The position numbers were made by a program, and so were the translations under genes. 64,000 bases of DNA from Armatimonadetes bacterium Uphvl-Ar1 (GTDB lineage Bacteria; Armatimonadota; Fimbriimonadia; Fimbriimonadales; Fimbriimonadaceae), in NCBI GenBank assembly GCA_002162075.1, contig CP021423.1, forward strand, positions 1,798,001 through 1,862,000. Reading direction: 5' to 3'. Below, piece by piece: positions 52,181-54,016 of the stretch (the first letter of the stretch is position 1; the number at the start of each line of letters is the position of its first letter). Below the pieces are notes generated by a model. The model was given only the letters and a program-made list of their open reading frames with translations, made no database searches and was not told the DNA's origin.

Positions 52181-54016
52181 ATGCGCATCCCGTTCGATTC
52201 CATCACCCTTGCCTCCCTGCTCTACGAAATTGACTTCCTTCGCGGGGCCAAAGTTCAGCGCATCATCCAACCCACGGAAACCGAAATCGTCTTCGGCCTT
52301 TACACCAAAGGCATCGAACACCCCCTCATCATTTCGTGGCATCCCGAGCTGTTCCGCATCCACACCCTTAGCCAGCGCCCGTCCGCCCCAACCGAGCCCC
52401 CGACACTCTGCATGACTCTCCGCAAATACCTCGGCGGGGGACGATTAGAATTTATTCGCCAACGCGGACTTGATCGGATTGTTGACTTCGGTTTCACTTC
52501 CGCCCACGGTGATTTCCAACTCGTTGTCGAACTCATGGGTCGCCACAGCAACCTCATCTTGGTCGACTCAAACCGCCGCGTTCTTGCCACCGCCAAGACC
52601 GTCTCGGCTAAGCAAAGTAAGCGTCCCGTACGAACTGGTCAACCCTACGAACCACCCCCCTTTGAGCCCAAACCATCAATCCTCCAGGCCAAACCCACAG
52701 ACAATCTCAAAGATTTTGAAGGCTACTCCCCCTTCCTCGCTCGCCTCATCGATTCAAAATTTTGCCCCACCCTGCCCTCTGGGGAGAGCCTGCCCCGGAC
52801 TCGATCCGGGGGACTTAGGGAGGGACAAAACCTAGACCAAACTCATAGGGTGCAAGACAACTCCCCCCTCCCCCCTGGGGAGGGACTTAGGGAGGGGCAA
52901 AGCCTAGACCAAACTCATGGGGTGCAAGACAGCTCCCCCCTCCCCTCTGGGGAGGGACTTAGGGAGGGGCAAATTCAGATTGCAGTTTCAACTAGCCAAC
53001 CCAATTCTCCAACCCTCGAAATCATCCAAACCATCTTAACAAAAAACATCTGGCAACCGTACTTCTCCCACGAATCCGGTGCCTACCCCCTCGACTTCAC
53101 ACCCCTCGACCCCACCGCAATCCCCCGCCCAACCCTGAGCATCGCCCTCGAACAAGCCTACGCCCTCCGCGAATCTCGCGACGCCCTGGCAAGCCAGCGA
53201 CAATCCCTCCTCAACCAACTCCAGCGGGTTGCTGATGCCCGCCGAGCCGCCCTCCGAGGCATAACCGAAGCCATCGCCACCGCCAACCGAGCCCCCGAAA
53301 TTCAAGCTCAAGCCGAGCTCATCCTCGCCTACCAAGGGTCAATCCAACCGGGTCAAGAAACCCTCGAAGCCTACGACTACCAAGGCAACCCCATCACCAT
53401 CCCCCTCGACCCCGAAAAAACTCCCGTCGAAAACGCCAACCGCCTCTTCAACCGCGCAAAACACGCCAAAGAACGACGCGACGAAGTCGCAACCCAAGGC
53501 GACCGCCTCCAACAAGACCTCACCTCCGTCGAATCCCTGATCCACCTCGTCCAAAACGCCACCACCCGCGAAGAACTTGACCAACACCGCGCCGAAGCAA
53601 AATCCCGGAACTACCTCCACCTCACCGGAGCCCCCAAAGCCAAAGAAGACCGCCCATTCGAAGGCAACCCCATCCGCGAACTCCTCAGCCCTGCCGGATA
53701 CCGCGTGCTCTACGGCACCAATTCAACGAGCAACGATTACCTCACCAACCGCGTCGCCAAGGGCAACGACATCTGGCTCCACGTCCGCGGCCAAACTTCG
53801 GCTCACGTCATCATTCAAACCCAAGGCAACCCCGACAAAGTTCAAAAGCCCGACCTCCTTTTCGCCGCCCTTGTTGCAGTCAAAAATAGCCCCGCCAAGC
53901 ATGGCTCATACGTCCCCGTCGACTACACTCTCAAAAAATACGTCCGCAAACCCCGAGGCTCCGCCCCCGGACTTGCGGTCTACGAACGCGAAAAAACCCT
54001 CCATGTTGACCCTTAA
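52181..54016 (+). CDS. rqcH: RqcH / NFACT-family ribosome-quality-control protein with in-frame repeat insertion
   Basis: The 611-residue protein has the NFACT-N domain (MRIPFDSITLASLLYEIDF, MTLRKYLGGGRLEFIRQRGLDRIVDFGF with the Asp-Arg pair in GLDRI that RqcH uses) and ends with NFACT-R (GNDIWLHVRGQTSAHVIIQ, then VKNSPAKHGSYVPVDYTL). Helical middle domains at about 310-490 are also present. Residues about 195-265 are an insertion of 24-residue repeats, discussed separately; without it the protein is normal. In Bacillus RqcH adds alanine tails to peptides on stalled 50S subunits. The gene follows a small membrane protein and overlaps the PAP2 gene by 14 bases. Confidence 0.88.
   Translation: MRIPFDSITLASLLYEIDFLRGAKVQRIIQPTETEIVFGLYTKGIEHPLIISWHPELFRIHTLSQRPSAPTEPPTLCMTLRKYLGGGRLEFIRQRGLDRIVDFGFTSAHGDFQLVVELMGRHSNLILVDSNRRVLATAKTVSAKQSKRPVRTGQPYEPPPFEPKPSILQAKPTDNLKDFEGYSPFLARLIDSKFCPTLPSGESLPRTRSGGLREGQNLDQTHRVQDNSPLPPGEGLREGQSLDQTHGVQDSSPLPSGEGLREGQIQIAVSTSQPNSPTLEIIQTILTKNIWQPYFSHESGAYPLDFTPLDPTAIPRPTLSIALEQAYALRESRDALASQRQSLLNQLQRVADARRAALRGITEAIATANRAPEIQAQAELILAYQGSIQPGQETLEAYDYQGNPITIPLDPEKTPVENANRLFNRAKHAKERRDEVATQGDRLQQDLTSVESLIHLVQNATTREELDQHRAEAKSRNYLHLTGAPKAKEDRPFEGNPIRELLSPAGYRVLYGTNSTSNDYLTNRVAKGNDIWLHVRGQTSAHVIIQTQGNPDKVQKPDLLFAALVAVKNSPAKHGSYVPVDYTLKKYVRKPRGSAPGLAVYEREKTLHVDP
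52765..52976 (+). repeat. 72-base in-frame repeat block within rqcH
   Basis: A 72-base unit starts CTCCCCCCTCCC and ends GGGGTGCAAGAC. It is complete at 52861-52932. A variant with a 24-base palindromic insert (core CCCCGGACTCGATCCGGGG) occupies about 52765-52860, and a truncated third copy is at 52933-52976. Each encodes 24 residues around PLPxGEGLREGQ. Because 72 and 24 are multiples of three the gene stays in frame. Each unit can fold into a CTCCCC/GGGGAG hairpin. Confidence 0.85.

Follow-up and report, generated by a model that had tools for sequence, protein, structure and literature searches.

The window, a stretch of 64,000 nucleotides (nt) from Armatimonadetes bacterium Uphvl-Ar1 (contig CP021423.1, positions 1,798,001 to 1,862,000; genome G000 below), contains a gene for the ribosome-rescue protein RqcH that is interrupted, in frame, by a block of short palindromic repeats (Table 1). 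The identity of the protein is firm: B. subtilis RqcH was the top match both by Foldseek (7aqc) and by phmmer. The block begins with a degenerate earlier copy of the element, continues with two 72-nt tandem copies, and ends with a 20-nt partial copy. The tandem copies differ at 5 of 72 positions, and 4 of the 5 differences change an amino acid. CTCCCC/GGGGAG hairpins lie at positions 52868 to 52882 and 52940 to 52954. The core GGGGAGGGACTTAGGGAGGGG is found twice in the window, both times within this block, compared with 0.01 occurrences expected from shuffled sequences.

Table 1. Features of rqcH and its repeat block. Positions are those of the window.
Feature	Position	Strand	Remarks
rqcH CDS, 611 aa	52181..54016	+	Open ORF; Pfam NFACT_N and NFACT-R_1; one match in own genome
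Element 1, degenerate class-A element enclosing a nested palindrome	52765..52829	+	Sister species has a CCCCGGACTTGATCCGGG module at the orthologous position
Nested 24-nt palindromic module AGCCTGCCCCGGACTCGATCCGGG	52787..52810	+	Same module at other loci; variant in the sister's stand-alone DUF559 arrays
72-nt tandem copy 1 (end of element 1, spacer, most of element 2)	52810..52881	+	
Element 2, class A, TCCCCCCTCCCCCCTGGGGAGGGACTTAGGGAGGGGCAA	52862..52900	+	Model R1 match, E = 1.9e-11
72-nt tandem copy 2	52882..52953	+	93% identity to copy 1
Element 3, class A, CTCCCCCCTCCCCTCTGGGGAGGGACTTAGGGAGGGGCAA	52933..52972	+	Model R1 match, E = 7.2e-12

An earlier reading of this DNA, made from the sequence alone, had described two full 72-base copies and a partial one with CTCCCC/GGGGAG hairpins at positions 52765 to 52976, and a reading frame preserved across them; both descriptions are accurate. 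It had also noted a 24-base palindromic insert in one copy. The insert is there, with the exact limits given in Table 1, but it is not a one-off: it is a second module that recurs elsewhere in the genome and in a sister species. The placement of the block in the NFACT-N region is correct for the Pfam NFACT_N model, which spans both the N-terminal and the middle domains and brackets the insert, but the insert lies past the NFACT-N fold itself.

The repeat encodes the peptide SPLPxGEGLREGQ plus a spacer peptide. The insert occupies approximately residues 194 to 264 of RqcH and is flanked by helices at residues 184 to 191 and 277 to 288. In the AlphaFold model, residues 195 to 275 have pLDDT values below 50 while the remainder is mostly well modeled; thus, the loop, whose structural placement the sequence-only reading had left to be checked, is predicted to be disordered. 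The folding energy of the whole block is within the range for its composition (z = −0.95 versus shuffles). A known structured RNA family was rejected, as an Rfam search of positions 52600 to 53100 gave no match up to E = 1. We consider the block to be an element because it recurs, not because of its folding energy.

The unit that recurs is about 40 nt long. Its C-rich and G-rich arms, in that order, are separated by a short loop and are followed by a short linker (ACTTA in rqcH) and a further run of Gs. A blastn search of the genome found 12 further places with the ∼38-nt element alone, without the spacer. A pattern search identified 25 exact cores, which fall into two size classes (A, GGGGAGGGACTTAGGGAGGGG; B, GGGGGAGGACTTAGGAGGGGG). 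With a sequence model built from these cores, the number of matches was 37 at a cutoff of E < 1e-3 and rose to 43 at E < 0.01; the 43 matches group into 25 separate clusters. Class C (CCCTCCCCTGATGGGGAGGGG...GGGGTGGGGAG) and the nested module (AGCCTGCCCC...GGGG) share mosaics with classes A and B. The stems are all C/T against G/A and start with a C-run, and the tail is mostly CAA. The genome-wide search that the sequence-only reading had proposed thus revealed a dispersed palindromic element with copies both within and between genes. We conclude that the rqcH block is a small cluster of REP-like, nonautonomous palindromic repeats, and that it is an element is almost certain.

Other repeat families were also seen in this genome. 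Repeats of the CGTCATTCCGGGCGTGACCCGGAATC type, which resemble CGTC-tagged REPs, adjoin class A/B elements near G000 positions 812389, 891913, 1489034, 2588982, and 2963177; thus, several repeat families occupy common blocks. Two Y1 transposase (IS200/RAYT-like) genes, at 447.8 kb (L055) and 959 kb (L056), have distinct repeats of their own nearby, of the GACCCCTCCGGGGTC and TGGTCTCTGACCAATGCCAC types.

Many element copies are intergenic, and rqcH is one of several host genes. By Pfam, the others encode the CCA-adding enzyme, ArgS, an FAD amine oxidoreductase, an ADP-ribosylglycohydrolase, CT_C_D and CT_A_B carboxyltransferases (PxpB/PxpC-like), and a two-domain ABC ATPase. In the CCA-adding protein the elements occupy the linkers between the DUF559, PolyA_pol, RNA-binding, and HD domains. 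Housekeeping proteins such as RqcH, the CCA-adding enzyme, and ArgS carry hairpin-encoded peptides in their loops and linkers. The genes for the CCA-adding enzyme, ArgS, the PxpB/PxpC-like proteins, and the ABC ATPase have frame breaks beside or within palindromic blocks (L165, L167, L170, and L171). The orthologous open reading frames (ORFs) for the CCA-adding enzyme and ArgS are intact in the sister species. Frame breaks near such homopolymer-rich elements may be sequencing indels or real decay. ArgS also has a nonpalindromic stretch of ∼290 nt that is wholly unlike between the sister species, with flanks that are 85 to 93% identical (L104, 935 to 1223, versus L109, 244 to 529).

The closest named relatives are metagenome-assembled genomes of the Fimbriimonadaceae (Armatimonadota). 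Among 61 genomes, class A/B or class C elements were found only in the window species and its sister species G006 (isolate BC.035), and an order-wide distribution of these classes was accordingly rejected; the broader CCCTCCCC palindrome was present in 24 of the 61. The distribution of the RqcH insert is equally narrow. It is present in the window species and G006 and absent from the 26 other aligned RqcH proteins, including that of the nearest outgroup, G007, so that the conservation in distant RqcH proteins that would have spoken against a mobile insert was looked for and did not appear. Relative to the G007 loop, the loop is 50 residues longer in G006 and 76 residues longer in the window species. 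In G006 the insert consists of class C elements at the same site, with the same CCCCGGACTYGATCCGGG module, and the encoded peptides differ between the two species.

The same situation, a common site with a different palindrome class in each sister species, was found for the CCA-adding enzyme, ArgS, and intergenic loci. The shared site and shared CCCCGGACTYGATCCGGG module fit an insertion into rqcH that predates the split of the two species, and we read the retention of sites with a swap of families as old insertions followed by turnover. Alternatively, repeated insertion into a few permissive sites might explain the differing families at common sites. There is a precedent in Xanthomonas, two species of which have different REPs at about the same site in recB (PMC3733652).

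We determined the GC skew at 20 sampled places in the window species' genome. Its sign switches near 1.12 Mb and again between 2.63 and 2.78 Mb, and its magnitude is 0.2 to 0.3. All 43 model matches are on the minus strand on one side of these switches and on the plus strand on the other (sign test over the 25 clusters, P = 6e-8), and class C elements follow the same rule (9 of 9). Likewise, all of the G006 copies that were scored occupy the strand whose skew is locally negative. Strict replichore polarity is not supported as a general property: it is clear only in the window species and its sister, and the elements of another class in G003 and G005, where skew is weak, show only a tendency. 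Insertion into single-stranded lagging-strand DNA yields this kind of orientation bias, as in IS608 and ISDra2 (PMC6006769), and is the simplest known cause of the polarity, although other causes are possible. The skew itself, 0.2 to 0.3 in the window species and its sister, compares with ∼0.05 in most sampled stretches of the congeneric G003 and G005; one lineage shows a very strong strand asymmetry (sampled G000 loci L059 to L078 plus the window; G003/G005 loci L224 to L247).

The densest element cluster of the genome (812 to 817 kb) holds its only DUF559 domain, and for this reason we tested the flanks of DUF559 genes in relatives. DUF559 is a PD-(D/E)XK, Vsr-like nuclease family (PMC1189080, PMC12907096), and a Caulobacter member has been described as a Vsr-like repair endonuclease (PMC12907096). 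In the window species the domain is fused in frame to the N terminus of the CCA-adding enzyme (G000:C1:817057-817335, minus strand, L165) and has class B elements on one side only. G006 has the same fusion, in an intact 750-aa ORF (L166:2583-4832), and the fused copies contain an E-x-D-G motif. The stand-alone DUF559 of G006 is located within an element array of another class, some units of which carry a AGCCTGCCCC module like that of rqcH.

The DUF559 loci of relatives were chosen by profile score, independently of repeats, and a second set came from plasmids of Alphaproteobacteria, Gammaproteobacteria, Deinococcota, and Cyanobacteriota. C/G-rich hairpins with a pyrimidine-rich arm were found within 500 bp of DUF559 at 15 of 22 Armatimonadota loci and 14 of 18 plasmid loci, compared with none of 26 RqcH loci and none of 7 Y1_Tnp loci. 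At the Armatimonadota loci these hairpins have a density of 2.64 per kb over the nearest 250 bp, compared with 0.09 per kb at 500 to 750 bp. Matched repeats (a local alignment score of ≥50 between the two sides) bracketed DUF559 at 18 of 22 Armatimonadota and 11 of 18 plasmid loci, and were mostly palindromes of the same architecture; the controls gave 1 of 44 and 1 of 36 (internal positions), 0 of 26 (RqcH loci), and 1 to 2% (mismatched pairs). Several brackets are near-perfect inverted copies resembling terminal repeats (L211, L214, L207, and L220).

The architecture common to the window and the DUF559 flanks is a C-arm, a loop, a G-arm, a few nucleotides, and a further G-run. Examples, each given as two segments, are CCTCCCCCTTGAGGGGGGAGG / CTGGGAGGGGGTG (D. 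psychrotolerans), CCCTCTCCCCGCCTGCGGGGAGAGGG / TTAGGGTGAGGGG (S. meliloti), CCCTCCCCAGGACTGGGGAGGG / TTAGGGATGGGTCGA (the relative G004), and CCCTCCCCTCTGGGGAGGG / ACTTAGGGAGGGGCAA (the window). Downstream of DUF559 on Photobacterium plasmid pGJ3-1 (L212), CCTCCCCCTT and CCCTCCCCTT hairpins alternate with a period of ∼148 bp for more than 1.4 kb.

DUF559 also occupies varied positions. On a Sphingomonas plasmid it is located between sufB and sufC, in a compact operon that has palindromes only at the borders of DUF559, and in three Deinococcus species the plasmid-borne hpa cluster has it in a different intergenic region each time, always near palindromes (L211, L219, and L223). Such variation is the behavior expected of a mobile gene. 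For the putative DUF559-palindrome unit, neither an empty site nor a duplicated target was recovered. At the level of genomes the correlation is modest: DUF559 is present in 10 of the 11 genomes with at least 10 CCCTCCCC palindromes and in 26 of the 50 others (61 genomes; Fisher's exact P = 0.02, with kinship ignored). Our search for earlier reports of DUF559 mobility or of palindromes flanking DUF559 covered the open-licence literature and found none.

The joint explanation that we favor, and consider fairly probable, is a REP-like system in which DUF559 takes the role of the RAYT. From the association, architecture, and polarity observed, we infer nicking, copying, and a dependence on DUF559 as follows. 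A palindrome-DUF559-palindrome unit would be mobile, and the dispersed repeats would be its miniature relatives. Extruded hairpins, both those in the nuclease's own bracket and those in the dispersed copies, would be cut or nicked by this Vsr-like PD-(D/E)XK enzyme, most likely where lagging-strand DNA is single stranded. Copying would then be into exposed lagging-strand DNA, so that the replication fork would set the orientation of the copies. Insertions that leave the frame open and fall in surface loops would survive selection. Later copies would land in, or recombine with, existing ones, which would account for the different families at the same sites in the sister species. This explanation assigns no benefit to RqcH. 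That DUF559 is what mobilizes the repeats is a proposition we hold to be evenly balanced. Several observations speak against it: the sole DUF559 domain of the window species is the CCA fusion with its one-sided elements, the DUF559 copies L204 and L205 lack flanking palindromes, the palindrome-rich G055 has no DUF559 match, and the function described for the Caulobacter protein is repair. The broadest form of the proposal is more tentative still: DUF559, a widespread family whose role is poorly understood, might mobilize a pan-bacterial superfamily of C/G-rich hairpin-plus-G-run repeats, and palindrome-DUF559-palindrome might be a minimal mobile element that makes REP-like miniature copies, replication-strand specifically, by a mechanism involving neither Y1 nor DDE enzymes.

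The main rival reverses the roles, making the palindromes targets into which a homing-type DUF559 gene inserts while they spread by other means (hairpin-templated copying or recombination). Palindromes on both sides of DUF559 would also result if the gene had inserted next to an array of them or within it. In addition, palindromes exist at sites free of DUF559, and palindromes are missing beside some DUF559 copies. Against this model are the near-perfect, terminal-repeat-like inversion of several brackets and the suf locus, where an otherwise compact operon has palindromes only at DUF559's own borders. We consider it rather unlikely.

It is improbable that these are ordinary REPs moved on lagging-strand single-stranded DNA by a Y1 tyrosine transposase (a RAYT or an IS200-like TnpA), with DUF559 being incidental. 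Single-strand transposition of the IS608 type would produce such a fixed orientation relative to the replichores (PMC6006769), and the window species has two Y1_Tnp genes. However, both of these adjoin different repeats, no RAYT flanked by the present repeats was found, none of the 7 Y1_Tnp loci of this genome and its relatives has such hairpins within 500 bp, and G006, which is at least as rich in repeats, has no Y1_Tnp match in its 99%-complete draft. Lacking both an association with the element class and a match in G006, RAYT/Y1 was rejected as the mobilizer.

It is very improbable that the insert serves a function in RqcH and is maintained by selection. The frame is open and an insert has persisted at this site in two species, but the peptides differ between those species, the loop is predicted to be disordered, most of the differences between the tandem copies alter an amino acid, and all other aligned relatives do without it; functional selection on the loop is thus unsupported. 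Least credible is an assembly error or mere local slippage: although C/G homopolymers, and broken frames next to the elements of several further host genes, suggest some indel errors, the independent G006 assembly has an insert at the same site (which argues for the insertion itself and not for its exact copy number), the element recurs in 25 clusters, and slippage accounts for the 72-nt duplication but not for dispersal.

Palindromes within genes are already known from the Rickettsia palindromic elements (RPEs) and from the GTAG and CGTC REPs (PMC2229807, PMC3733652), so the insertion in rqcH is in itself another example of an established phenomenon. The sequence-only reading had considered the tolerance of the insert in RqcH to be notable, a view that does not stand, as REPs within genes have been recorded in many species, including in tRNA synthetases (PMC3733652). 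The new parts are the DUF559 bracket, the strict polarity, and the swap of families at conserved sites. For many families of short bacterial palindromes, such as the CGTC REPs, no mobilizing enzyme has been identified (PMC3733652). The bracketing of DUF559 in Armatimonadota and on plasmids of Pseudomonadota, Deinococcota, and Cyanobacteriota provides a concrete, testable candidate for the mobilizer of one such family.

RPEs are palindromic repeats found in and between genes, with open frames, that are tolerated in conserved proteins (PMC2229807). The likeness to them that the sequence-only reading had drawn is correct for behavior, since the present elements also sit in frame in protein genes and in intergenic DNA. 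It fails for family: by description an RPE is a stem-loop of 105 to 146 bp with terminal inverted repeats, whereas the unit here is a ∼40-nt hairpin plus G-run, linked to DUF559, that forms arrays with spacers in a different lineage and is nearer to REP/BIME-type repeats. GTAG REPs are short hairpin repeats in dimers and clusters, also within genes, and in REPtrons the gene for the mobile enzyme is flanked by its own repeats (PMC3733652). The present system has the same short hairpins in clusters and in genes and likewise an enzyme gene flanked by repeats, but the flanked gene is DUF559, encoding a Vsr-like nuclease, and not a Y1 tyrosine transposase, and none of the aligned element copies has a GTAG tag at the hairpin end. 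CGTC REPs are short palindromes found in several phyla, including in genes, reportedly without a dedicated transposase (PMC3733652). Their tag is CGTC 5′ of the hairpin, and 19 of 34 of our element copies have a CG(T/C) motif ahead of the C-run. CGTC REPs have a stem of 8 to 9 bp that starts with AT pairs and a CCA tail, whereas our stems start with a C-run, have mostly a CAA tail, and are followed by a further G-run. BIME-like mosaic blocks combine several palindrome types and short spacers in one block. The present blocks do the same but, unlike BIME mosaics, their units hold a strict orientation relative to replication. Finally, the nuclease domain that the palindromes bracket is that of the DUF559/YcjD family (PD-(D/E)XK, Vsr-like), a known relative of Vsr (PMC1189080, PMC12907096).
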